Below are positions 9,107-45,661 of a stretch of 64,000 nucleotides of DNA, in pieces. Source of the stretch: a gamma proteobacterium HTCC2207 (GTDB taxonomy: Bacteria > Pseudomonadota > Gammaproteobacteria > Pseudomonadales > Porticoccaceae). Below the pieces are notes generated by a model. The model was not told the origin of the DNA, did not search any database, and saw only the letters and a program-made list of their open reading frames with translations. The stretch is from NCBI GenBank assembly GCA_000153445.1, contig CH672397.1, positions 292,930 to 356,929 of the forward strand. Direction: 5' to 3'. Numbering within the stretch: the first letter of the stretch is position 1; each line of letters begins with the position of its first letter. The translations under genes and the position numbers were made by a program.

Positions 9107-10363
9107 GTGAAGTTATCAAAATTTGGTGAAAAGTTTTCAGGTCAGTCCGGCATAGTCGAACTTATGGATGATCTGGGTACGGCGCTAAATGAAAATCCCG
9201 AGATGATCTTTATGGGTGGCGGCAATCCAGGTCGTATCCCAGAAGTGGAGCAGATATTTAAGGCGCGTCTGGAAACCGTGCTGGCTGATCCAGCACAACT
9301 GCATACTCTGCTTGGTGTCTACCAGTCTCCCCAAGGGGATAAAGATTTTCGAGAGCAGATTGCCGGCCTGCTTAGACAGCAGTTTGGCTGGGATCTATCG
9401 GAGCGCAATATCGCCGTTTCCAATGGCAGCCAGTCAGCATTCTTTGTGCTCTACAATATGTTTGCCGGTGAGATGGCCGATGGCAGTCAGCGCTCGATTC
9501 ACCTGCCTCTGGCCCCTGAATATATTGGTTACCGTGATATAGGTCTAAGCGACAATTTATTTACTGCCACCCGACCAGAGATCGAACTTCTCGACGACAA
9601 TCTATTTAAATATCATGTGGATTTCTCGCGGCTGAATATAGATCAGCAGAGCGCGGCACTCTGCGTCTCGCGACCGACCAACCCCACTGGCAACGTACTT
9701 ACAGACGACGAGATTGAGCAGTTGGATACCATTGCTCTTGAGCAGGATATTCCCTTTATTCTCGATGGCGCCTACGGTTTGCCATTCCCGGGAATTATTT
9801 TTAATCAGGCCAAAGCGCATTGGAATAGCAATACCATTTTAGTCTTGAGCCTCTCTAAGCTGGGCCTTCCCGGCGTGCGCACCGGAATTATTGTTGCCAG
9901 TGAAGAGATCATTCAGGCCTATACCCGGGCCAATACGATTGTCAGTTTGGCCTGCGGTAATCTTGGCCCAGCGGTAGCCAGAGAGTTGGTCAGTAGTGGC
10001 GAGATTTTGGCGCTTAGTGAACAGCGTATTGCGCCGTTTTATCGCCAGCGCGCTCATCAGACAGTGCAGTGGTTTCGTGAGTCTCTGGGTGATCTGCCAT
10101 ATCGGATTCATCGGCCCGAGGGGGCGATCTTTTTGTGGCTTTGGTTTAAGGATTTGCCGATTACCAGTAAAGAGCTCTACCAACGACTTAAAGCGCGGGG
10201 CGTTTTAGTGGTGCCAGGACATGACTTTTTCCCTGGGATCACTGACGACTGGCGTCATCAGCAGGAGTGCATTCGCGTTTCCTACGCTCAAGATGATGCC
10301 GTGGTGAAAACCGGTGTGGAGATTATTGCCCAAGAGGTGGCTCGGGCCTATGAGACCAGCTAG
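9107..10363 (+). CDS. avtA: valine--pyruvate aminotransferase AvtA
   Basis: 418-residue PLP-dependent fold-type I aminotransferase that interconverts valine/2-ketoisovalerate and alanine/pyruvate. The N-terminus (KFGEKFSGQSGIVELMDDLG) and the motif FMGGGNPGRIPEVE are characteristic of AvtA. The PLP lysine is in LSLSKLGLPGVRTG, and the substrate-binding CVSRPTNPTGN is also clear. Translation starts at a GTG at 9107, preceded by AAGGAG about 10 bases upstream. It is convergent with pabB. Confidence 0.92.
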   Translation: MKLSKFGEKFSGQSGIVELMDDLGTALNENPEMIFMGGGNPGRIPEVEQIFKARLETVLADPAQLHTLLGVYQSPQGDKDFREQIAGLLRQQFGWDLSERNIAVSNGSQSAFFVLYNMFAGEMADGSQRSIHLPLAPEYIGYRDIGLSDNLFTATRPEIELLDDNLFKYHVDFSRLNIDQQSAALCVSRPTNPTGNVLTDDEIEQLDTIALEQDIPFILDGAYGLPFPGIIFNQAKAHWNSNTILVLSLSKLGLPGVRTGIIVASEEIIQAYTRANTIVSLACGNLGPAVARELVSSGEILALSEQRIAPFYRQRAHQTVQWFRESLGDLPYRIHRPEGAIFLWLWFKDLPITSKELYQRLKARGVLVVPGHDFFPGITDDWRHQQECIRVSYAQDDAVVKTGVEIIAQEVARAYETS

Positions 10364-18291: not shown

Positions 18292-18885
18292 CTAGTTAGG
18301 CTGCCAGGATTCTCCTGGGTGCAGGCTGCTACTTTTGGGCTTGGAGTAAGTGATATAGATATCGCCTAACTCTTTGGGAAAAGTCACCTTCAGTTGGCTT
18401 GATTCCTGCGCTGTAAGCAATTTAAAGTCAAAGGCGAGTACTTGAAAGAACCGACGGTCACTGTAGGTATAGAGCTTAGACGCCGGATTGGAAAACTGCG
18501 AATCCACAAGCTGGCCTTTCAGCAAGCTAAACATCTGTTGTGCTGTCGGATATCGTTTGTTCAATACCACTGCCTTGGTGCCCAGCATAACCTTAAGTTC
18601 ATTATCAAAAAGTTTGATTACCTCCTTATAGAGCAGAGCAAACTTTTCATCCGGAAGCGCGGCTACGACGGCCAGAGGATAAACCTTTGAACCGTGGTTA
18701 AGTAACTCAATAAAATCAAATTGAACCCTGAGCTCTACCAGGCGATTGGGCCTGACTTCAATCTTCGCCGAGGCTGATGCCAGGCCATGTCCCTCAACGG
18801 AGAGGACTGTAGTAGCCATCAGCATTAACAGGCAATGTCTCAGTGCCAGTATTACTCGATTGGACGCTAAGGTTCTAGTTGCCAA
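18292..18885 (-). CDS. exported protein of unknown function
   Basis: About 197 residues if started at the TTG at 18885, which overlaps the stop of the preceding YHYH gene by 11 bases and suggests coupled translation. An ATG at 18825 is another option. The N-terminal stretch VILALRHCLLMLMATTVLS followed by ASASA looks like a signal peptide, so the protein is probably periplasmic. The mature part (IEVRPNRLVELRVQFDFIELLNHG, later TYSDRRFFQVLAFDF and PKELGDIYITYSKP) resembles no family I know. Its link to the YHYH protein suggests a shared extracellular role, but that is inference. Confidence 0.6.
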   Translation of the reverse strand: MATRTLASNRVILALRHCLLMLMATTVLSVEGHGLASASAKIEVRPNRLVELRVQFDFIELLNHGSKVYPLAVVAALPDEKFALLYKEVIKLFDNELKVMLGTKAVVLNKRYPTAQQMFSLLKGQLVDSQFSNPASKLYTYSDRRFFQVLAFDFKLLTAQESSQLKVTFPKELGDIYITYSKPKSSSLHPGESWQPN

Positions 18886-21064
18886 AAGGGGTGAAGTCCA
18901 AGGTTGCATCGCCGACTGGCTTTTCTGTACAGATAGTTTCAGTCTCATCGCTATTAGTGATTGAACTGTTCGCGCGGTATCTGAATTCAAAGCAGGTAGT
19001 TGAGGCGTCATAGTTTGCATCGTCGCTATCGAGGATACGCCACAAAACCTGAGCCATAGTATTGGCCGTTAAAAAGCTCGGTACATTGCTGGTGCCTGGC
19101 ATGACCTCGGTAATGTTGTAGGTCTTGCCGTTATATAAACCGCTGTAATTGGCCATCACATCAACACTGATTGCCTGGCCTACCGACTGTCCTGTCCAGC
19201 CATTTCTTTCACTCAGTAGCTTGGTATTGGCCGCCGGGGCTTTGGTGTCGGAGTCCAAGACCTCTCCCATAAAGCAGCCAATCGAGTAAGGCGCGTCCTT
19301 GGTGGAGTAGTAAGCGTAGCCTGATATAGCACCATCTCCGTTGATATCGTAAGCATTACATTCATTGAGCGGGTTGCTGCCATCTTTGACATCAGATGGA
19401 CTGTAGTTAAGGTGCTCATAGAGGCCAGCACCAAAATTGGTATCAGTCACTGAGCGGGCAGTCTGTGCATGCAGAGTGTTCTCAATTGTGCCTCCGGCCT
19501 CACCATAGTAAAGCGGAATGCCGTCAGTCATATAGGCGACCGGTTTGCTCGGGTCATGGACATCCATAAGGCAGATCGGCGCGCCGTGGAGATGGTAACC
19601 TTCGCCATTGGGTGAATGTCCGTAACACTGATCGACTTCACCCAGCACAACTGTATCTCTACCCGCGTAGTCCTCTCCGTCTGATGGACCGCAAGTATCA
19701 CCTACACCAGAATTGTTGCTCTGTTTATAGTAGGGCAAAATGACCTGCCCATCGACGCTGAAGCCCAGTACGCCGGTGCCGTCGCAGGAGATATTATTGC
19801 TTGGCTCGCTTAAGTAGGAAGGCGTCAGACGCATAGTGCTACCTGATTGAGAAGGCAGCGATAAACGTCCAATCCAGCTGCTTATACCAACCTGAAGTTG
19901 CTGGTCAGCTCTTGCTGTTTTTAAGCCGTCCGCAATATGTGACACCACCGAAAACTGGTCGGTATTCGCGTTGCAGCTAATGGAGCTGTGCACTGCCGAA
20001 TACTCATTAAAGTGCGCAGTTTTTTCTGCACAACTAAAAGTACCGTCTTGAGGAACATGCAGGTTATTAGCCAGTGCCGTAGCATCAAATCTAACGCGTC
20101 TAGTGGTTATTGGCACAGCGCTTAAGGACTGCGTAATGAGGGCAGCTTGCACATCTGCATGTGTCGCCGAAGAGGATAATTCTAACTCTGAATCTAGCTC
20201 GTAAAGAGTAAACACATACAACGTCTCTAGGCCTGCGCCATCAGCACAGGGTGCTGCATAGGCAATGCCACCAGCTGCCGCGATTTCTGCCGAGGTCATA
20301 TCGCCCTCAGCTGCAGTACCAATTGAAAAGTCGCCCTCGTCTAGAGTCGTAATCGTGCCGGGAATATTGAATATGGAAAACTGAAAGGTAGAACTACCGT
20401 CGCTGTTAACGCTGTGCATAGTCAGCCCTAGATGGGTTGCTAATGCAGATGTACCTTTCCAAGACAGGGAAGGGGAAGTACCACCATTGACGCCGTCACA
20501 GGTGTAGGACAGTGGCAGGTTCACATAATCACTACCGGTTGCTTTAAAAGCATCACTGTTTATAACGGCATTCGACAATACTGGTTGCTGAGTTTTCAGC
20601 ATTAAAATTTCAATTTTTTCACCAATGTCGGCGGCATTAAATAGGGTTGCATTGGGTGCGATAACGTCCTTGATAAGCACGTCGTCTCTAAGACCAAATA
20701 GGTAGCGTAATATGACCAAACCATCTGTCAGTGCGTCAGCCGACCCATTACCATCGATATCGATACTATCGCCAAGGCCGTCTATTTCAGAGACTATTTG
20801 TGCGCCAGTTGTATAGGTGGCATCAGGTGCTAGGGCACTCTCTATCAGCGCAGTATCGGTTAGACCAAACATGCCTCTTAGTAGAAGTAGTCCATCAGTT
20901 AATGCGTCATATTGGCCATTTCCATCTATGTCTAGAGGACCTGCGGCGGTACTGTCATCGGCTGAACTTGTCGTTAAAAATCCTGAGAAGAGGAAAATTG
21001 ATAAGACTGATGCCAAATAGTAATTGTTACGTTTTAGGCGGCGATTGGTGAGCGCTTGAATCAT
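18875..21064 (-). CDS. secreted YHYH-domain/PEBP-like protein with two dockerin-like loops
   Basis: 729 residues with a signal peptide (ASVLSIFLFSGFL, then SSADD). Two calcium-loop repeats follow, DIDGNG-xxDALTDGLLLLR at ~45-63 and DIDGNG-xxDALTDGLVILR at ~102-120, resembling half-dockerin/EF-hand modules. Residues ~155-345 look like a phosphatidylethanolamine-binding-protein fold (LPLSYTCDGVNGG, PSLSWKG, FNIPG). The C-terminal half is a YHYH domain with GYHLHGAPICLMD at ~489 and conserved Cys pairs. YHYH proteins are exported and of unclear function. The ATG at 21064 is chosen over a TTG four codons upstream. The same DALTDGLLLLR module recurs in the collagen-like protein at 21620. Confidence 0.8.
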   Translation of the reverse strand: MIQALTNRRLKRNNYYLASVLSIFLFSGFLTTSSADDSTAAGPLDIDGNGQYDALTDGLLLLRGMFGLTDTALIESALAPDATYTTGAQIVSEIDGLGDSIDIDGNGSADALTDGLVILRYLFGLRDDVLIKDVIAPNATLFNAADIGEKIEILMLKTQQPVLSNAVINSDAFKATGSDYVNLPLSYTCDGVNGGTSPSLSWKGTSALATHLGLTMHSVNSDGSSTFQFSIFNIPGTITTLDEGDFSIGTAAEGDMTSAEIAAAGGIAYAAPCADGAGLETLYVFTLYELDSELELSSSATHADVQAALITQSLSAVPITTRRVRFDATALANNLHVPQDGTFSCAEKTAHFNEYSAVHSSISCNANTDQFSVVSHIADGLKTARADQQLQVGISSWIGRLSLPSQSGSTMRLTPSYLSEPSNNISCDGTGVLGFSVDGQVILPYYKQSNNSGVGDTCGPSDGEDYAGRDTVVLGEVDQCYGHSPNGEGYHLHGAPICLMDVHDPSKPVAYMTDGIPLYYGEAGGTIENTLHAQTARSVTDTNFGAGLYEHLNYSPSDVKDGSNPLNECNAYDINGDGAISGYAYYSTKDAPYSIGCFMGEVLDSDTKAPAANTKLLSERNGWTGQSVGQAISVDVMANYSGLYNGKTYNITEVMPGTSNVPSFLTANTMAQVLWRILDSDDANYDASTTCFEFRYRANSSITNSDETETICTEKPVGDATLDFTPFGN

Positions 21065-21180
21065 TTTTATAACCAATGTTATTTGGTTGTAGAGTATCTA
21101 AAGTTTTTTACTTTATCCACTTATGATTAAAGCTTTGATGCCATCTCTGTAACGCCAGAAAACGATTCTGCGTAAGGCAC

Positions 21181-21217: not shown

Positions 21218-21235
21218 ATATGGCGGTGGGATAGA
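21218..21235. other. att core copy (left end of the island)
   Basis: ATATGGCGGTGGGATAGA, whose first 17 bases equal the bases at 45568-45584 across the tRNA-Ser(UGA) 3' end (TATCCCACCGCCA on the minus strand). A tRNA-type terminator is on its left and the island's 259-bp arm begins here. Confidence 0.85.
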
Positions 21236-21476
21236 ACCTCATCTCCTGCTTCCGGCTCCATTAGCCTTGTCAGCTAACGTGTTTGCTAGTGTTCCAGCAA
21301 GGTAGTTCGATGTCAACGGCCTTAAAATACCTACTGTTTTGTCTACTTAGCTTCAAAGGCTTGGCAGTCTTCAGAGACTTTATAGCCCCCCCCCCGCAGG
21401 TGACCATAGGGGGTACCCGTGTATATATAGGTGTGGTCGGAGGTTTTGAGGTGTAAGGGCTTTGTAAACTAGTTGG
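21218..21476. repeat. 259-bp inverted repeat, left arm
   Basis: Matches the reverse complement of 26046-26303 from end to end by eye. The only difference is a run of ten C here against nine G in the other arm. It starts with the att core. No open reading frame of interest lies inside it. The two arms bracket 4.6 kb carrying the fibre gene and two small genes. Confidence 0.95.
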
Positions 21477-21564
21477 ATTGGTTAACCTTAATTGCTCCCT
21501 AGATTTAGACGACAATAAGAATTGTCCATTTGAAGGCTGTGGAGTCGACTCGCTCTAGCTCTTA

Positions 21565-21593
21565 TTGGACTAGGCGGGCTATTCAGTTATGAT
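21565..21593 (+). promoter_or_regulatory. promoter of the collagen-like gene
   Basis: TTGGAC, 17-bp spacer, TATGAT. The spacer and -10 region (GGCTATTCAGTTATGATTA) are nearly identical to those of the promoter at 29856 in the neighbouring segment. It lies just inside the inverted repeat and 26 bp before the start codon, so it would move with the gene if the segment inverted. Confidence 0.6.
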
Positions 21594-21619
21594 TAGCCGA
21601 ATTATCTACGGTTAAGCTC

Positions 21620-24600
21620 ATGCTCACTCTATTAAATCGTTTGCCCAAATACTTCGTTGTTATCTTAGGCTGCTTAGCCATCTCTTTTTCATATGCTCAG
21701 GAATTTAGAGCGGACGATACATCCATTCTTGATATTGATGGTTCTGGTGAGGTTGATGCCTTAACAGATGGCCTTTTATTATTAAGATCAATGTTTGGAA
21801 TCAGTGATGAAGTCCTAATAAATGGAGTTGTATCACCTAATGCCTCTGTTACTGAATCCGCGGCTATTGATTCCTATATATCCGCGATTAGAGGCACGAC
21901 ATTTGGAGAATTAACTTCTGGTGGTGGCTCTCAAGGTGCCACAGGAACTGGATTAAATAATAAAGGAACGTGGGTAAGTTCAACCTATTCATCTGGTGAT
22001 TATGTTTTTTACAGTACAAGTGCTAGTGATACTACAAGTACTATGTGGATTTTGAAGGGTGATACAGACTATGTTTCTAATGTCGAGCCTTATGACGATC
22101 TAACGAATTGGATAATCTTCCAAGCTCCAAAAGGTGATAAGGGAGACACAGGAGCCACAGGTGCCGCTGGTGTAGCTGGTCCTCAGGGTATAGCAGGAGC
22201 TAAGGGTGATGCAGGAACTGATGGAGCCAAGGGAGATGCAGGTGCTGATGGTTCTGATGGAGCTAAAGGAGATACAGGAGCTAAAGGTGATACAGGTTCT
22301 CAAGGTGTAGCAGGAACTGATGGAACTGATGGCGCAAAGGGCGATCAAGGAATCCAAGGTGTCAAAGGTGATAAGGGAGACACAGGAGCCACAGGTGCCG
22401 CTGGTGTAGCTGGTCCTCAGGGTATAGCAGGAGCTAAGGGTGATGCAGGAACTGATGGAGCCAAGGGAGATGCAGGTGCTGATGGTTCTGATGGAGCTAA
22501 AGGAGATACAGGAGCTAAAGGTGATACAGGTTCTCAAGGTGTAGCAGGAACTGATGGAACTGATGGCGCAAAGGGCGATCAAGGAATCCAAGGTGTCAAA
22601 GGTGATAAGGGAGACACAGGAGCCACAGGTGCCGCTGGTGTAGCTGGTCCTCAGGGTATAGCAGGAGCTAAGGGTGATGCAGGAACTGATGGAGCCAAGG
22701 GAGATGCAGGTGCTGATGGTTCTGATGGAGCTAAAGGAGATACAGGAGCTAAAGGTGATACAGGTTCTCAAGGTGTAGCAGGAACTGATGGTTCTGATGG
22801 CGCAAAGGGCGATCAAGGAATCCAAGGCGTCAAAGGTGATACAGGCTCTCAGGGTGTAGCAGGAACTGATGGAGCCAAGGGAGATGCAGGTGCTGATGGT
22901 TCTGATGGAGCTAAAGGAGATACAGGAGCTAAAGGAGATACAGGTTCTCAAGGTGTAGCAGGAACTGATGGTTCTGATGGCGCAAAGGGCGATCAAGGAA
23001 TCCAAGGCGTCAAAGGTGATACAGGCTCTCAGGGTGTAGCAGGAACTGATGGAACTGATGGCGCAAAGGGCGATCAAGGAATCCAAGGCGTCAAAGGTGA
23101 TACAGGCTCTCAGGGTGTAGCTGGAACTAATGGTTCTGATGGCGCAAAGGGTGATCAAGGAATCCAAGGCGTCAAAGGTGATACAGGCTCTCAGGGTGTA
23201 GCAGGAACTGATGGAGCCACAGGAGCTAAAGGTGATGCAGGAACGAATGGTACAAATGGTGTTGATGGAGCCAAGGGAGATACAGGCTCTCAGGGTATAG
23301 CTGGAGTTAAGGGTGATGCAGGTGCTGATGGTTCTGATGGAGCTAAAGGAGATACAGGAGCCAAGGGAGATACTGGTTCTCAAGGTGTAGCTGGAACTGA
23401 TGGAGCCAAGGGAGATACAGGTGCCAGTGGAGCTAAGGGAGATACTGGTGCCACTGGCGCAACTGGCCCTCAAGGAGCAACTGGTATAGCAGGGGCAGAT
23501 GGTTCTGATGGAGCTGATGGAGCTGATGGAGCAACTGGCCCTCAAGGAGCAACTGGCCCTCAAGGAGCAACTGGCCCTCAAGGAGCAACTGGTATAGCAG
23601 GGGCAGATGGTTTGGATGGAGCAACAGGAGCATCGGGCGTTGCTGGCAGTGTCACAGAACTAACTGATGCATTGGTCGAAGATTACTCTGTGTATCTTGG
23701 AAATAACCCATCGGCAACGACCGATACTGCACAGTACAATGTTGCAATAGGAATGACTGCATTGGATGCAGTTACTACTGGAGATAGCAACGTTGCTGTT
23801 GGTCACGACGCTTTAACTTCAAATACCACAGGCAATTCGAACACCGCCTCTGGTTCCTTTGCTTTAAAATCGAACACTACAGGGATGCGCAATACGGCTT
23901 TAGGTGCTAACACCTTAGATGACAACACTACAGGTAGCTACAACACAGCCTCAGGCGCCTATGCTCTACAATCGAATACCACAGGCTATAACAACACTGC
24001 CTCGGGTGACTCCGCTTTATATTACAACACCGAAGGTATTGGAAATACTGCCTTCGGTAACGCTGTTTTAGTATCAAACACAACAGGTAGTCATAACACC
24101 GCCTCTGGTTCTTATGCTTCAAATAGAAACACTACAGGAGATTACAACACCGCCACAGGTACCTATGCGTTATACGGAAACATAACAGGTTCCAAGAATA
24201 CTGCTTCAGGTAATCGAGCTTTATACTCTAATACCACAGGTAACTACAACACAGCCAACGGTACTAATGCTCTCTACAGTAATACTGCGGGCTATGACAA
24301 CACCGCCACTGGAACTGATGCACTCTACTCCAGCACTACAGGCTACCAAAATACCGCTAGCGGAGTTCAATCACTTATGCGAAATACAACGGGCTGGGCT
24401 AATACCGCGGTCGGTGACCATGCGCTCTGGAGCGTCACGACGAGCAATTTCAATACTGCGACCGGCGGCTCTGCGCTCTTCAATAGCACCGGCAATCAAA
24501 ACACCGCTAACGGTTACTTTGCTCTATACAACAACACCACGGGCGACAACAATGTGGCGGTAGGCTATGCACTCTACACGAATACTACGGGTTCTCAGAA

Positions 24601-25093
24601 TACGGCCATTGGATATGGTGCTGATGTAGCTAGTGGTGATTTAACCAATGCTACTGCTATTGGTAATGGCGCAATAGTTACAGCCAGTAATACTATTCAG
24701 TTGGGAAATGCGTCTGTAACAAACGTAGTAACAAGCGGCCGTTTGTTAGCCGACATGTATTTGATTGCCTCAGACAGAAGGCTTAAAAAAGACATTGTGG
24801 ATACGCGTTATGGTTTAAATACAATTCTTGAATTACGCCCAGTAGACTATAAAGTGAAGTCTAATAATTTAGAGCGAATTGGTTTTATAGCCCAAGAGCT
24901 AAGGCCAATAGTGCCTGAAGTGGTAAAAGGTATTGAGGGTGATTTAGAAAAAGGTGAGACGCTGAGGGTCGCCTATACAAGCTTAATCCCTGTGCTGACT
25001 AAAGCGATCCAAGAACAGCAGTTGCTGATTGAAGCTCAAGACAAGGTGATACAGCAACTTCAAAAAGACGTGCTAATACTTAAGCAAAAATAG
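21620..25093 (+). CDS. secreted collagen-like/beta-roll fibre protein with C-terminal S74 chaperone domain
   Basis: 1157 residues. The signal peptide (residues 1-26) is followed by a dockerin-like calcium module (DIDGSGEVDALTDGLLLLR, ~34-52). A Trp/Tyr-rich segment at ~110-165 is perhaps a carbohydrate-binding type. A Gly-X-Y collagen-like region, mostly KGD/TGA/TGS triplets, spans ~170-677. About sixteen 17-residue repeats of the form NTAxGxxALxxNTTGxx (~706-1020) resemble the YadA-type trimeric beta-roll. SDRRLKKD at ~1051 starts an S74 auto-cleaving intramolecular chaperone domain, and a coiled coil ends the chain. This is the plan of a trimeric fibre, as in phage tail fibres or adhesins. 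Here it has a signal peptide and no phage genes beside it, so a cell-surface or secreted fibre is inferred. Codon use is AT-rich compared with the backbone. Confidence 0.9.
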   Translation: MLTLLNRLPKYFVVILGCLAISFSYAQEFRADDTSILDIDGSGEVDALTDGLLLLRSMFGISDEVLINGVVSPNASVTESAAIDSYISAIRGTTFGELTSGGGSQGATGTGLNNKGTWVSSTYSSGDYVFYSTSASDTTSTMWILKGDTDYVSNVEPYDDLTNWIIFQAPKGDKGDTGATGAAGVAGPQGIAGAKGDAGTDGAKGDAGADGSDGAKGDTGAKGDTGSQGVAGTDGTDGAKGDQGIQGVKGDKGDTGATGAAGVAGPQGIAGAKGDAGTDGAKGDAGADGSDGAKGDTGAKGDTGSQGVAGTDGTDGAKGDQGIQGVKGDKGDTGATGAAGVAGPQGIAGAKGDAGTDGAKGDAGADGSDGAKGDTGAKGDTGSQGVAGTDGSDGAKGDQGIQGVKGDTGSQGVAGTDGAKGDAGADGSDGAKGDTGAKGDTGSQGVAGTDGSDGAKGDQGIQGVKGDTGSQGVAGTDGTDGAKGDQGIQGVKGDTGSQGVAGTNGSDGAKGDQGIQGVKGDTGSQGVAGTDGATGAKGDAGTNGTNGVDGAKGDTGSQGIAGVKGDAGADGSDGAKGDTGAKGDTGSQGVAGTDGAKGDTGASGAKGDTGATGATGPQGATGIAGADGSDGADGADGATGPQGATGPQGATGPQGATGIAGADGLDGATGASGVAGSVTELTDALVEDYSVYLGNNPSATTDTAQYNVAIGMTALDAVTTGDSNVAVGHDALTSNTTGNSNTASGSFALKSNTTGMRNTALGANTLDDNTTGSYNTASGAYALQSNTTGYNNTASGDSALYYNTEGIGNTAFGNAVLVSNTTGSHNTASGSYASNRNTTGDYNTATGTYALYGNITGSKNTASGNRALYSNTTGNYNTANGTNALYSNTAGYDNTATGTDALYSSTTGYQNTASGVQSLMRNTTGWANTAVGDHALWSVTTSNFNTATGGSALFNSTGNQNTANGYFALYNNTTGDNNVAVGYALYTNTTGSQNTAIGYGADVASGDLTNATAIGNGAIVTASNTIQLGNASVTNVVTSGRLLADMYLIASDRRLKKDIVDTRYGLNTILELRPVDYKVKSNNLERIGFIAQELRPIVPEVVKGIEGDLEKGETLRVAYTSLIPVLTKAIQEQQLLIEAQDKVIQQLQKDVLILKQK
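22136..22837 (+). repeat. 234-bp tandem repeat in the collagen-like region
   Basis: Three consecutive 234-bp (78-codon) units start at 22136, 22370 and 22604. The first two appear identical and the third differs near its end. Shorter variants continue to about 23220. Such perfect repeats point to recent expansion and are likely to vary in copy number. Confidence 0.9.
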
Positions 25094-25101
25094 GTTAAGT
25101 A

Positions 25102-25428
25102 ATGAAGCGATTACTTTTGTTAATCCTATTAGCCTTCTCCATACCTACTTTAGCGGTTGACACTACCTTTGATTGGTCTGGTCTTGAGAGAAGTAAGATA
25201 AGCCTTGAAGCACCTTTACTAATCGTAAAAGGCTCCTTAGGTTTCCTAGGGTGCGGTTACATCAACACTGATTCCTGTATTGATGAAGCCTGTGCCATAG
25301 TATCTGGAGTTAATACTCATGATGGTATGCTCAAAGCATCAGTAAAGGCTGTGTCTAAGGATGCTACTGAACTTGGTATTGAGGTTGGTATGACAGGTGC
25401 TGAGGCTATAGAAGTAAAGGCTCAATAG
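25102..25428 (+). CDS. DUF1805-like small exported protein
   Basis: 108 residues. The first ~18 (MKRLLLLILLAFSIPTLA) form a signal peptide. The remainder, with GFLGCGYINTDSC, EACAIVSGVNTHDGML and LGIEVGMTGAEAI, matches the plan of the DUF1805 (YunC-like) family, normally a small cytosolic protein of unknown role. An exported version is unusual. It starts 8 bp after the fibre gene stop, so the two are probably one operon. Confidence 0.7.
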   Translation: MKRLLLLILLAFSIPTLAVDTTFDWSGLERSKISLEAPLLIVKGSLGFLGCGYINTDSCIDEACAIVSGVNTHDGMLKASVKAVSKDATELGIEVGMTGAEAIEVKAQ

Positions 25429-25435
25429 GAGGGCT

Positions 25436-25669
25436 ATGAAAACCTACCTCCTTACCCTCATCGGTGTAATAGTCTCTGGATACGTCAGCTTCTACGCAGC
25501 CCTTGGCTGTTTTCGTGTTCTGCTCTGGATCTTTGATTATGAGCTTACTGCAACTCAACGGATCTTTGTATCAGAGAACGGCTACTTAGCCTTTATTGCA
25601 GGGATGGTAGTTGGAATGGTTGTGTTCTGGAGGCTGTTTAGGGTGCAAAAGGTACAGCACTTTAATTAG
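25436..25669 (+). CDS. small membrane protein with two predicted helices
   Basis: 77 residues, starting 7 bp after the DUF1805-like gene with a good ribosome site (AGGAGG) just before the ATG. Helices are expected at about residues 4-33 (LLTLIGVIVSGYVSFYAALG) and 50-68 (YLAFIAGMVVGMVVFW), with a short basic tail. I know no family for it. Its position suggests a role with the fibre operon. Confidence 0.65.
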   Translation: MKTYLLTLIGVIVSGYVSFYAALGCFRVLLWIFDYELTATQRIFVSENGYLAFIAGMVVGMVVFWRLFRVQKVQHFN

Positions 25670-26045
25670 GTACAGGTAATGTAAGAGGGGCTAGTTTAGT
25701 TTTTACGTATAATGTAGTAACAAAACAAATTCTTATTAGTTACTTTAAAGTCCTTTTAAGTTAACGCTATATGCATTAATTAAGGGTTTAAAAGTAAACC
25801 CTTAAGATTTAGTTGAAGTCTTTTAAGCAACCTCCAATAACAACCCTTGTTCTTTTTTAAAAAAGCTTAAAAAAAGCATTTACATAAGGCTTATAGATAA
25901 AAGATAAAAGATATTTAAATGAAGAGTTGCCGTAAGAGATGCAGTTAAAAAATTTAGATATTTCAAAACTCTACATGCTACACAGTAGATACGAAGAAAC
26001 TCAGTCTTTTGGATCACTTTATTAGTGTTTATTTTATAAATTAAC
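25670..26045. other. AT-rich spacer without genes
   Basis: No credible open frame. A perfect 10-bp palindrome (TAAGGGTTTA / TAAACCCTTA, 25781-25804, 4-bp loop) may act as a weak transcript end after the fibre operon, though no T run follows it. The spacer ends at the right inverted-repeat arm. Confidence 0.5.
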
Positions 26046-26303
26046 CCAACTAGTTTACAAAGCCCTTACACCTCAAAACCTCCGACCACACCTATATATA
26101 CACGGGTACCCCCTATGGTCACCTGCGGGGGGGGGCTATAAAGTCTCTGAAGACTGCCAAGCCTTTGAAGCTAAGTAGACAAAACAGTAGGTATTTTAAG
26201 GCCGTTGACATCGAACTACCTTGCTGGAACACTAGCAAACACGTTAGCTGACAAGGCTAATGGAGCCGGAAGCAGGAGATGAGGTTCTATCCCACCGCCA
26301 TAT
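26046..26303. repeat. 259-bp inverted repeat, right arm (258 bp)
   Basis: Reverse complement of 21218-21476 with nine instead of ten bases in the homopolymer. Its outer end carries the att core in inverted orientation and runs straight into the 82-bp second inverted repeat, so both integration arms meet here. Confidence 0.95.
26286..26303. other. inverted att core flanked by both island arms (attP-like)
   Basis: TCTATCCCACCGCCATAT, the reverse complement of the core at 21218 and 28229. On one side is the left-end arm of the island (26046-26285) and on the other the integrase-side arm (26304-26367). That is the arrangement expected in the excised circular form or at a junction of two copies, but here it is in reverse orientation. 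Confidence 0.8.
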
Positions 26304-26367
26304 TTATGCTTCAAAAGCTCTACAGCCCTTGTTAGCTCTCGATTATTTCGAGACTAATGAGGAGCAG
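26286..26367. repeat. 82-bp inverted repeat, left copy
   Basis: Identical by eye to the reverse complement of 28165-28246. It includes the att core and the upstream region plus first codons of the integrase at 27006-28175. The two copies bracket the lipoprotein and the integrase. Confidence 0.93.
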
Positions 26368-26401: not shown

Positions 26402-26908
26402 CTAGTCTTTGTATTTTTGGAAGTAATTGTTACTAACATTTTGGAGCTTCCAAAGCCCCTGATCGAAAAATATTCCTCTTTTTGCTAAGAACTTGCCTAA
26501 GTTTCGAAACTCAATCTCATCCCTCATGCCTCCATTACCTACCATGCCTTCGTTTTGGCCCATGGTATACACGGATGTGAAACCTTTGACAGATTCAGTA
26601 GTTTGATTTACCAGACGATCGCTAGAATCGAATTTTAATTCATATCGCTCTACACGATGTGAATTTCCAGCTGCGACAAGATTAACAATTGGAACCCATA
26701 CCATATTACTGCTCTTCGATTTTCTAATATAGTAAATCATGGTAACTTGCGGCTCTCTGTCTACCACAGAAAATGGAGGACCATATTTATCCACTATGTC
26801 AGACATGGTCGACCCTTCAATAAATGTGGTTTGGGATGGGCTATTTATATCAACAGTTGAGCATGAAGCCATCAAAATGGTTAAAAAAATTAAAAGTAGC
26901 TTATTCAT
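26402..26908 (-). CDS. small lipoprotein, BamE/SmpA-like in style
   Basis: 168 residues. The signal peptide MNKLLLIFLTILMASC carries a lipobox ending at Cys 16. The segment IEGSTMSDIVDKYGPPFSVVDREPQVTMIYY resembles the start of the BamE/OmlA-type fold (a helix followed by strands). The overall match is weak and the function unknown. It lies between the two copies of the 82-bp inverted repeat, downstream of the integrase. Confidence 0.65.
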   Translation of the reverse strand: MNKLLLIFLTILMASCSTVDINSPSQTTFIEGSTMSDIVDKYGPPFSVVDREPQVTMIYYIRKSKSSNMVWVPIVNLVAAGNSHRVERYELKFDSSDRLVNQTTESVKGFTSVYTMGQNEGMVGNGGMRDEIEFRNLGKFLAKRGIFFDQGLWKLQNVSNNYFQKYKD

Positions 26909-27005: not shown

Positions 27006-28175
27006 TCATGCATCACTAAGCTTTCCTAAATATTTAACTAACAAAGCTAACTCATACCCATCACCATAGGTTTGCCCAACAGACTTTAAAGCCCAACCAC
27101 CTAACTGGTCGATCATATCTGTAGGTGCTTCCACTGCTCTTAGCCTGTCTCTAAAGCTATGACGCAAGCCATGAACAACATCATTTGGCCCTGCAACAGT
27201 CTTGATCCATTTGTTTATTGCGGCTGAAGCAGAGTTTGAATTGCAACGCTGAGAGTTTGTGTATCTAGGGAAGCAATACAGGCCCGTAGAGTGCTGTTTG
27301 AGACGCTTTGCGGCCCATAATGACAGACCGATAAGCGGTATTTTACGCTCGCTAGAGGCTGTTTTAAGGCGTCTGTGTGGGTGTGGAATTAAATGTATGT
27401 AAGGTATTTCTTCATCAAGACGCAAGTCACTCAACATAAGACCTGCGGCTTCAGATAAACGCATACCTGTATCGAAGATAATGGCGACTAACCATCTGAT
27501 GTCATCATCCAGTGCAATGCACTCTTTGTTGATCTTAGTCATATTAGCTGGCGTAACAGCATGACGCTTCTTGGCATCAGTGTTTGATGGGAGATACACC
27601 TTTGCAAACGCATTCTGGCACTCTAGAGCCTGCTCCAACGTGACAAAGTTGATTACAGCTTTGATACCTGAGAAGACACGCTGCAATGAACTGTTGCTTA
27701 AACCTTTCTCAATCAGCCACTCTCGCAATACCGTAGCGTCTTTTGATGTGTAGTTGTCTATCGGCTTATTGCCAAGACACTCAACCAGATAAGTAATGTA
27801 GCGCTGAGCTGTTGTGAAGAATAGTTTCTGCCTACCTTGGCCGATGACAGCAAAATAGGTCTCGAGAGCTTCCTCAATGGTAGGTAAGGATGAAAGTTTT
27901 GTGCTGGGATCAACTACCAGCAAGTGAGCGGCAGGGATATCTAGCCGCTTTAACCTCAAACCTAACCAGTAATCATCTAGTTTTGATGCAAAAACTTTAG
28001 ATGCAGTGGTTGCTCGCGACTGAGAATTAGTTCGGAGTGATTGGGTTATGCGTGGTTTTAAGTAGAAACATCTGAGATCAGCAGGAACCGACCTAGAGAA
28101 ATAATAGATGTTGCCTTTGGTGTAGGTATATCTAGGATGCTTTGAGTGTCTACTCATTTGTCTACTGCTCCTCAT
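27006..28175 (-). CDS. tyrosine-family site-specific integrase
   Basis: 389 residues. The N-terminal part (KGNIYYFSRSVPADLR) is a DNA-arm-binding-like domain and residues ~100-190 a SAM-like core-binding domain. The catalytic domain shows the first Arg in FDTGMRLSEAAGL, the box HGLRHSFR and the end GGWALKSVGQTYGDGY with the nucleophilic Tyr. The start codon is inside the 82-bp inverted repeat, so the promoter must lie in the arm next to the att core at 28229. This places it as the integrase of segment A and likely user of these att sites. Confidence 0.88.
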   Translation of the reverse strand: MRSSRQMSRHSKHPRYTYTKGNIYYFSRSVPADLRCFYLKPRITQSLRTNSQSRATTASKVFASKLDDYWLGLRLKRLDIPAAHLLVVDPSTKLSSLPTIEEALETYFAVIGQGRQKLFFTTAQRYITYLVECLGNKPIDNYTSKDATVLREWLIEKGLSNSSLQRVFSGIKAVINFVTLEQALECQNAFAKVYLPSNTDAKKRHAVTPANMTKINKECIALDDDIRWLVAIIFDTGMRLSEAAGLMLSDLRLDEEIPYIHLIPHPHRRLKTASSERKIPLIGLSLWAAKRLKQHSTGLYCFPRYTNSQRCNSNSASAAINKWIKTVAGPNDVVHGLRHSFRDRLRAVEAPTDMIDQLGGWALKSVGQTYGDGYELALLVKYLGKLSDA

Positions 28176-28246
28176 TAGTCTCGAAATAATCGAGAGCTAA
28201 CAAGGGCTGTAGAGCTTTTGAAGCATAAATATGGCGGTGGGATAGA
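28165..28246. repeat. 82-bp inverted repeat, right copy
   Basis: Partner of 26286-26367. It contains the integrase start codon (28175), its probable promoter and, at the outer end, the att core at 28229-28246. Confidence 0.93.
28229..28246. other. att core copy between segments A and B
   Basis: ATATGGCGGTGGGATAGA, the same 18 bases as at 21218. The integrase-side arm of segment A is on the left and segment B begins on the right. No tRNA-type terminator is on its left, unlike the other direct copies. Confidence 0.85.
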
Positions 28247-28374
28247 CCGACATACTATATAATTATACTTTATTCTAGAATACTGTAATAACCGCTACAA
28301 CTGGCTTATAGCCTAACTATAAACAACTACTATTCCGATACCGTCCTGCACTATACTGCTACATATTGACTTGT

Positions 28375-28434
28375 AACTGTAACTCTAACTGTAACTCTAA
28401 CTGTAACTCTAACTGTAACTCTAACTGTAACTCT
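28375..28434. repeat. five tandem 12-bp repeats, probable integrase arm sites
   Basis: Five exact copies of AACTGTAACTCT lie between the att core at 28229 and the P4-type integrase at 28540. Two more near-exact copies occur at 45482-45505, close to the tRNA. Direct repeats in these positions are typical arm-type binding sites for a tyrosine integrase or its accessory factor. Confidence 0.8.
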
Positions 28435-28539
28435 AATGCGATATAAACCCTTCCCTTCGAGATTAAGACTATTCGCCAAGTGTTGCATGAAGTCGCTTAG
28501 ATCGCGATTTAGAAGGTTTAAATGGGAGTGTAAAGCCTT

Positions 28540-29829
28540 ATGGCAAACAGAACCTCAAAGCTAGAATTAGATGCAATAATTAAAGGTAAAATACCCAAGC
28601 GTTATCCATTGGGGGATGGCCTGTATTTCACTATTAAGCACTCAGGGGCCATGAGTTTTGGTATTCGCTATCAGATCAACGGGAAGACTGACTACAAAGG
28701 CATGGGAGGCTACGACAAAGTTCACAACAATCTTGGGATAGCTAGGGCCAAGTGTGAGGCATACCGAGTTCAGATTAGACAAGGGATTGACCCTAAGATT
28801 GAAGAGCAGCAAGCGCTCAATCTAAAGCAATCAGCTAAAGCCGCAGAAGATCAATTAAAAGATCGCACATTCGCTAAATATGCCTATCAGCACATTAAGA
28901 GCCTTGAACCGTCTTGGACTAATGTAAAAACATTTGCTCAGTGGAGAAGCTCTCTTGAACAGTATGCATTCCCAGTTATAGGCGAAACTCCAGTATCTGA
29001 TGTTAGCAGGACTCAAGTGTTAGAAATCTTACAACCAATCTGGTTTGATAAGACTGAGACAGCCGATCGGGTCAGACGAAGAATTGCCGCTATTTTGGAT
29101 GCCGCTATTTCTGATGATCTTAGAACCGAGAGGAACCCTGCTATCTGGCGAGGCAGTCTTCACGGGAAGTTACCCAGTGTTGAAACCCTTAAAAAAGCAA
29201 AGGCACCCACTGAAGAGCGGGCTCATGCATCATTACACTATGCTCATCTTCCTATGTTTATGGAGTCTTTAAGAGCGCAGGACGGTATAGGCGCAAGAGC
29301 ATTGGAGTTTTGTATCCTAAATGCCAGTAGAACAACTGAGGTACTTGACGCCACTTGGGGTGAATTTGATCTAGAGGAAGGTATATGGTCGATTCCAGCA
29401 CGTCGCATGAAGGGCCGAGAGAGGCATAATATTCCCTTGAGCACACAGTCCATTGCCCTAATTAAGCAGTTGAAACAACTTAAAATGAGTGATTTCGTGT
29501 TCCCGAATAGATCGAATGGTAAGAGTCTGTCACAGGCAGGAATGTCCTCGGTTTTAAAGCGAATGAATAAGATCAATGATTGGAAAGATATACATGGCCA
29601 ATTGATAACCGTTCATGGCTTCAGAGGATGCTTCAAGACTTGGACTACGGAGAAAACTGACACTGATTGGTTAACAGGAGAGATGGCTCTGGCACATAAA
29701 ATTAAAGACAAATCATCTGCTACGTATCAAAAAGGTGATCTTATAGATAAAAGGCGCCGGCTAATGCAAAAGTACAGCGACTATGCCTGTACAACGCCAT
29801 CGGGAAAAGTCGTTCAACTCAGAGGATAG
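28540..29829 (+). CDS. P4-type tyrosine integrase (DUF4102 N-terminus)
   Basis: 429 residues. The N-terminal DUF4102-like domain (PLGDGLYFTIKHSG, ARAKCEAYRVQIRQGIDP) is typical of integrases of tRNA-borne islands. The catalytic domain shows LNASRTTEVLDATWGEFD, HGFRGCFKTW and EMALAHKIKDKSSATYQKGD, then KRRRLMQKYSDY; Tyr in SATYQ is the likely nucleophile. It sits 294 bp from the att copy at 28229 and points away from it. It differs strongly from the integrase of segment A, so at least two element types have used this tRNA. Confidence 0.9.
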   Translation: MANRTSKLELDAIIKGKIPKRYPLGDGLYFTIKHSGAMSFGIRYQINGKTDYKGMGGYDKVHNNLGIARAKCEAYRVQIRQGIDPKIEEQQALNLKQSAKAAEDQLKDRTFAKYAYQHIKSLEPSWTNVKTFAQWRSSLEQYAFPVIGETPVSDVSRTQVLEILQPIWFDKTETADRVRRRIAAILDAAISDDLRTERNPAIWRGSLHGKLPSVETLKKAKAPTEERAHASLHYAHLPMFMESLRAQDGIGARALEFCILNASRTTEVLDATWGEFDLEEGIWSIPARRMKGRERHNIPLSTQSIALIKQLKQLKMSDFVFPNRSNGKSLSQAGMSSVLKRMNKINDWKDIHGQLITVHGFRGCFKTWTTEKTDTDWLTGEMALAHKIKDKSSATYQKGDLIDKRRRLMQKYSDYACTTPSGKVVQLRG

Positions 29830-38815: not shown

Positions 38816-38829
38816 ATTAATTGTTATAG

Positions 38830-45449: not shown

Positions 45450-45481
45450 GGGCCTATGATTTGGAGTACTTTTTTGATTAC

Positions 45482-45570: not shown

Positions 45571-45661
45571 TGGCGGTGGGATAGGGATTCGAACCCTAGT
45601 TAGGCTATTAACCTAAGCCAGTTTTCAAGACTGGTGCATTCAACCGCTCTGCCATCCCACC
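45571..45661 (-). tRNA. tRNA-Ser(UGA), island attachment gene
   Basis: 91-nt class II tRNA with a long variable arm. The acceptor stem is GGTGGGA with TCCCACC, the discriminator is G, and CCA is encoded. The anticodon loop CTTGAAA contains TGA. The T-arm is TAGGGTTCGAATCCCTA. The 3'-terminal TATCCCACCGCCA is repeated at the island boundaries, so the gene is intact and serves as integration site. Confidence 0.96.

Follow-up and report, generated by a model that had tools for sequence, protein, structure and literature searches.

A reversed internal attachment site within a tRNA-targeting island of a gammaproteobacterium, and its recurrence in related islands

Results

Anatomy of the island

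We analyzed a 64,000-nucleotide stretch of the genome of the gamma proteobacterium HTCC2207 (contig CH672397.1, positions 292,930 to 356,929; hereafter the window). A 7.0-kb island occupies 21.22–28.25 kb of the window and is part of an array behind a tRNA-Ser(TGA) gene. We observed that the island holds, between its two ends, an attachment (att) core in reversed orientation at which two inverted repeats meet, one around the cargo genes and one around the integrase gene. The features are as follows (window positions, strand, description):

21218..21479, +, outer P' arm including the core; left arm of the cargo inverted repeat
21219..21235, +, far-end att core on the chromosome side, an exact core copy; by eye, its left neighbor resembles a transcription terminator
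21620..25093, +, cargo gene for a 1157-amino-acid (aa) collagen-like protein with an S74 chaperone domain (Pfam Collagen, Peptidase_S74)
25102..25428, +, cargo gene for a 108-aa DUF1805 protein
25436..25669, +, cargo open reading frame (ORF) of 77 aa, no family match
26043..26303, −, inner P' arm including the core; right arm of the cargo inverted repeat
26286..26302, −, inner att core, reversed, an exact core copy
26286..26367, +, inner copy of the core and P arm; inner arm of the integrase inverted repeat
26402..26908, −, passenger ORF of 168 aa in the integrase direction, lipoprotein-like by eye, no family match
27006..28175, −, tyrosine integrase gene, 389 aa, DUF6538 and Phage_integrase; an in-frame start further in is possible
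28165..28246, −, outer copy of the P arm and core; tRNA-side arm of the integrase inverted repeat, with the core (+) at 28230..28246
45571..45661, −, tRNA-Ser(TGA) gene targeted by the island array; its 3' end forms the att core

The att core, TATGGCGGTGGGATAGA, occurs as exact copies at 21219–21235 (+), 26286–26302 (−) and 28230–28246 (+). At up to three mismatches there are five sites in the window, versus a mean of 0.09 in shuffled sequences. The core is the 3' end of tRNA-Ser(TGA), with one mismatch at the tRNA itself, and a further core with three mismatches lies at 38829. Exact direct copies stand at both island ends (21219 and 28230), which places the island among tRNA-targeting elements, and the integrase gene lies at the target end, 54 bp from the core.

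The arms of the cargo inverted repeat (21218–21479 and 26043–26303) align over 262 columns at 99.2% identity. The 259-bp inverted arms described in the initial annotation, which was made from the sequence alone, are real; the aligned arms differ by one C in a homopolymer and, beyond the 259 bp, by one base towards the inner end. That annotation also described the core at 26286 as joined, in reverse, to the left-end arm and to the integrase-side arm. We confirmed this junction: 26286–26367 pairs with 28165–28246 over 82 bp without mismatch, and the extended pairing (26279–26367 with 28165–28253) is 97% identical. This second inverted repeat, which encloses the integrase and one passenger gene, had escaped the annotation. 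The inner P arm ends just short of a TAGACA motif that is present in the outer copy. Because both inverted repeats meet at the reversed core, the core order is +, −, +, and the middle site consists of P' arm, core and P arm: an attP-like site, inverted inside the integrated island. Among known RNAs, only tRNAs were found at gathering score; the single sub-threshold match (FuFi-1, E value 0.89) was taken as chance.

Recurrence of the integrase inverted repeat

A profile scan of GTDB genomes returned 279 relatives of the integrase, of which the best 80 were examined (loci are numbered with the prefix L, genomes with G). In 75 of these, over 120 bp of the locus precede the integrase match, and they formed the testable set; the remaining five loci were cut upstream and excluded, and two of the five show the repeat. 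At a threshold of at least 26 bp and an E value of 1e-3, the integrase inverted repeat was present in 53/75 testable loci of related DUF6538 integrases, and in 21 of the 32 with at least 2 kb downstream. The relatives include SAR116, Rhodobacteraceae, Porticoccaceae, SAR92, OM182 and Litoricola, in both Alpha- and Gammaproteobacteria. P4-type integrases from the same and related genomes served as a control, and none of 20 showed the repeat (20 taken from 55 matches; two of the ORFs are short, at 279 and 262 aa, and only 5 have a tRNA nearby). With the repeat counted at 90% identity or more, 47/75 matched pairs of upstream and downstream sequences showed it versus 1/75 mismatched pairs.

The repeat reaches into the target gene. 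An upstream tRNA accompanies 44 repeat-bearing loci, and in 38 of them the repeat extends into the tRNA, by 13–30 bases in 37 loci (mostly 14–17) and by 1 base in one. The detected match ends before the tRNA in the other 6/44. The targets of repeat-bearing loci are tRNAs for Ser, Arg, Leu, Phe, Thr, Gly and Asn. By eye, the repeat ends within a motif region similar to TAGACA in several relatives. The integrase arms are often only 70–100 bp long.

An assembly artefact or a one-off inverted duplication might produce such a layout. Many short-read contigs stop at the repeat (a contig end lies within 1.5 kb of the integrase match in 38/80 loci), and the window arms rest on the window's own assembly. 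Against this, the structure is also present within a finished megaplasmid and within megabase contigs, and it recurs where the controls are clean. The concern over an assembly artefact, raised in the initial annotation, is thus answered for the family by the finished Ruegeria sp. TM1040 record, and at that level the artefact explanation is refuted; overall we consider it extremely improbable. Recurrence and controls together rule out a one-off accident. A viral origin was also rejected: a viral-contig scan gave no confirmed relatives, a profile scan gave two, and phage records gave three partial, distant matches.

Three further arrangements were seen among the relatives. L107 (6135–8757) carries a tandem pair of family integrase genes; both have an inverted repeat of their own, and the end of the contig truncates the second. 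L048 (7779–10699) carries head-to-head integrase fragments within a larger inverted repeat, resembling a collapsed pair of modules. The Rhodobacteraceae genome IMCC1909 (G202) has 20 integrase matches, six long ones of which are L189–L194, so such islands seem abundant there.

Islands with both inverted repeats

We located the far end in eight islands: the window island, L014, L108, L189, L190, L193, L200 and L207, where L189 and L200 occupy the positions of L125 and L076, respectively. It was not located in the other loci examined. Both the integrase and the cargo inverted repeat are present in seven of the eight. One of the seven lies on the finished megaplasmid of TM1040, where both repeats are 100% identical, over 85 bp around the integrase and 1148 bp around the cargo; the cargo arm holds the same BRO-family protein gene in two copies, and the cargo includes annotated type I restriction genes. 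The integrase and cargo repeats of IMCC1909 measure 121 and 745 bp (L190), 262 and 438 bp (L193) and 81 and 347 bp (L189). Those of L200 measure 80 bp (100%) and 293 bp (83%).

The only other match of the window integrase in its own genome (59%) lies on contig C2, at tRNA-Arg(TCG). The plan there is the same, with repeats of 80 bp (100%) around this integrase and of 247 bp (96%) around its cargo. The far core of the C2 island is degenerate, with no second direct core at up to three mismatches.

The window P' arm sequence has a single close match, at 88% and near the start of a contig in G016. In L200, a 23-base piece of the integrase-side arm is found again near both the inner and the far site, 93–115 bases away from the core. 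In ten loci (L076, L082, L083, L085, L091, L108, L109, L113, L114 and L132), arm-like pieces flank the inner core on its cargo side, and because of these the inner site looks like a nearly whole attP. Read from the tRNA, the family plan begins with a core (+) and a P arm, followed by the integrase and, in some islands, a passenger. Next come the P arm in reverse, the core (−) and the P' arm in reverse; the cargo, a P' arm and a core (+) then lead on to the chromosome. The integrase repeat is the more widely conserved half of this design.

Arms and cores within and between islands

The two arms of one island were closer to each other than to the nearest arm of any other island in 46/51 islands, equally close in 2 and less close in 3. 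Since these arms were picked by similarity, the telling case is L123 and L125, whose arms are 100% identical within each island and 91% between the two, while the surrounding integrase region is 95% alike. L108 and L119 run counter to the trend, with arms 100% identical and flanks 76% alike. The modules of L014 (tRNA-Arg) and L063 (tRNA-Leu) are 91% alike, and both cores have changed with the target. L057 is 93% identical to the window integrase region; by eye, its target seems to be the end of a protein-coding gene (9925–10015), and its inner core matches that target.

RecA-dependent homologous inversion and gene conversion might do all of the turning and swapping, with the integrase serving integration and excision only and the reversed att site kept by repeated conversion copying. 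Arms of up to 1148 bp at 100% identity are sufficient for homologous recombination, and homogenization of arms within an island requires conversion in any case. However, the short integrase arms make poorer substrates for homologous recombination, the inner copy keeps the tRNA-derived core at many different tRNAs, which conversion alone does not require, and P4-type islands of the same and related genomes lack the repeat. The retained core and the short arms lead us to favor the integrase over homologous recombination; as the whole explanation, the RecA route seems unlikely, if still one to be taken seriously.

Passenger genes at the module border

The slot between the integrase stop codon and the inner arm is occupied in L084 and empty in L094, and L057 and the window carry different passengers. 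Passengers are thus replaced at this border. Among 32 loci with a slot longer than 200 bp, a convergent ORF begins no more than ~65 bases from the arm edge in 20 and further off in 4; 7 (including the window) have ORFs in the integrase direction only, and 1 has no ORF. A gap of 3–56 bp, with no passenger, separates the integrase stop from the repeat in 26/58 loci.

The convergent starts near the inner arm edge in those 20 loci would fit an inner arm retained mainly as a promoter for the passenger gene, its att function being incidental. We consider this very unlikely: about half of the repeats abut the integrase stop without a passenger, the inner copy takes in the tRNA end, and the window passenger runs in the opposite direction.

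Orientation of cargo and integrase

Cargo is both replaced and inverted between related islands. L123 and L125 have both ends in common and no cargo protein match between them. L202 and L200 share three cargo blocks that are inverted and in reversed order (7469 columns at 95.9%, 794 at 92.7% and 338 at 84.3%), while their integrase regions align directly at 69.5%. L100 and L102 share an inverted block of 2668 columns at 73% together with a second inverted block. Cargo lies in direct sense in the pairs L117/L120 and L102/L106.

A cargo gene of the phrog_4756 family occurs in 15 loci (L123:6495–7856, L014:11424–12671, L071:135–1712 and 12 more). It runs with the integrase in 7 loci and against it in 5; three were excluded from this count, either for a gene position upstream of the integrase or for a turned integrase module. 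The integrase itself is far more constant in orientation. Across 84 loci, the tRNA lies on its 5' side in 61 and on its 3' side in 3, with no tRNA found nearby in 20. One of the three is L071, which has a turned integrase module with the repeat and an exporter-like passenger beside tRNA-Phe; the others are L078 (a 20-bp core repeat only) and L070 (cut by the contig).

The initial annotation had proposed that recombination between reversed att sites or between the 259-bp arms inverts one segment carrying the fibre-like gene. The proposed inversion gains support from relatives whose cargo lies in both orientations behind such integrases; the single segment does not hold, since there are two modules. 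As a whole, that interpretation is partly supported.

We favor, with slightly better than even confidence, the reading that the window island belongs to a recurrent tRNA-targeting integrative family in which a reversed spare attP makes two invertible, exchangeable modules. Several observations weigh against it. The repeat was undetected in 11 of the 32 loci with at least 2 kb downstream, and L108 has the integrase repeat without the cargo repeat (by eye, its far core adjoins sequence resembling another island's arm). The arms in the 51-island comparison were selected by similarity. The 61:3 ratio indicates that the integrase module is not freely flipping. In the L202/L200 pair, a 1.1-kb block that adjoins the inner arm aligns directly (75%), and the fetched stretch does not reach the far end of L202; the second inverted block of L100/L102 is out of reversed order, so this pair is not a simple inversion. 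The cargo comparisons are all between genomes, so the inversions could be old and made by RecA. The analysis covered assembled sequences, in which neither a circle nor a switch of orientation was seen.

Proposed mechanism

The two modules each lie between oppositely oriented cores and near-identical arms. Each module could invert while the outer ends of the island are retained, and modules could be exchanged between islands. The main route would be recombination by the integrase between the reversed core and the outer cores, probably helped by homologous recombination and gene conversion between arms. The excised circle is predicted to carry two oppositely oriented attP sites. A favored return reaction may hold the 5' end of the integrase module at the tRNA, the inner P arm often lacking part of the arm-site region; alternatively, expression may fix the orientation of the integrase. 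Module inversion and exchange at the reversed att site is the simplest account of the arm, core, passenger, cargo and orientation data.

Genomes of marine plankton differ greatly in their tRNA-bordered islands, and the exchange of cargo there is little understood. A reversed spare att site that divides an island suggests how cargo might be turned over and change orientation in several marine groups, a mechanism open to test. The design would also account for the frequent breaks of short-read assemblies beside these integrases.

Comparison with known systems

The yeast 2-micron circle carries a recombination site in each of its two inverted repeats and codes for a tyrosine recombinase in one of its halves. 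The predicted island circle is alike in these respects; it differs in that the island is integrated and its circle is a prediction only. The likeness is an analogy, with no claim of membership. Amplification of the 2-micron circle through Flp1/FRT has been described (PMC7710549). It is conceivable, and in our judgment rather doubtful, that the island is an integrating bacterial analogue of this circle, with two inverted identical attP repeats in the excised form and integrase inversion as part of the life cycle, for module shuffling or for a switch of replication mode that yields concatemers. Some members would then contribute a polymerase-like phrog_4756 protein. This protein has no Pfam family and no PDB sequence match. 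Its structural model has a mean predicted local distance difference test score (pLDDT) of 80, and the top Foldseek matches are single-subunit RNA polymerases and family-A DNA polymerases (best E value 1.6e-3, template modelling score (TM-score) 0.34 to the query), a weak likeness that is suggestive only. We found no replication-protein family match among the searched cargo ORFs of the window island.

CTX phage has two attP-like sites, attP1 and attP2, in opposite orientation within one element. In CTX phage, the sites are reported to lie ~90 bp apart, act as a folded single strand and use the host XerCD (PMC3089051), whereas in the islands the sites are kilobases apart and the integrase is coded by the island. 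By analogy, two attP copies might pair in a single-stranded form of the island to give a double-stranded attP, with integration after single-strand transfer. The two opposite attP copies with perfect arms and the CTX precedent would suit this scheme. The copies are, however, ~1.8 and 4.6 kb apart in the window, where the cores lie at 21219, 26286 and 28230 and no close pair of inverted attP sites of the CTX type was found, and no transfer gene or single-strand stage was seen for the window island. We regard this scheme as highly unlikely.

With other tRNA-targeting islands that use tyrosine integrases, the window island shares an integrase at the target end, a core copied from the target gene and an array behind one tRNA. 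SGI1 has an internal attP in tandem arrays, where it is reported to arise between whole copies of the same orientation (PMC2297512); here, a single island contains the site, which is reversed and has inverted arms on its two sides. Tycheposons and tycheposon-like islands are also marine, tRNA-bordered and of variable cargo, with a tyrosine recombinase, and the secondary description used for this comparison mentions no reversed att site (PMC10872708). Inversion by such an enzyme has a precedent in the tyrosine integrase Int-pTN3, which is reported to invert DNA between att sites (PMC5495485). The initial annotation knew of no described island of this design. We likewise found no description of a reversed internal attP in an island in the open-access literature (subscription papers and preprints aside); its recurrence in Alpha- and Gammaproteobacteria indicates that the layout is not a one-off.

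Cargo of the window island and its neighbors

The cargo gene at 21620–25093, previously read as a fibre gene, is better read as a collagen-like adhesin with a C-terminal S74 chaperone domain. Its product has NCBIfam collagen-like adhesin matches below the cut-offs of those models, and its N-terminus resembles a secretion signal by eye. The fibre reading retains some basis, as the PHROGs collagen-like matches include phage tail-fibre families. In phages Mu and P1, invertible fibre segments are turned by serine invertases that switch alternative fibre ends. The window island is similar in having inverted sites around a fibre-like gene beside a recombinase gene; it differs in its tyrosine integrase and whole-gene cargo. 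Phage-type switching of tail fibres was rejected because the recombinase is of the tyrosine class, matching Phage_integrase and not a serine invertase. The chromosomal gene beside the island (18875–21076) and the adhesin have dockerin-like repeats in common (DIDGxGxxDALTDGL, by eye).

We searched for the DUF1805 cargo gene in 193 genomes, and 6 were positive besides its own genome. The regions fetched contained no clean inverted copy of the whole window cargo. In L054, an older locus, DUF1805 has the same sense as in the window.

The array behind the same tRNA-Ser contains at least one more island, with a P4-type integrase (28540–29829) and the degenerate core at 38829. TAACTGTAACTC repeats at 28374–28436 are similar to a stretch near 45481 and are perhaps arm sites of this P4-type island.

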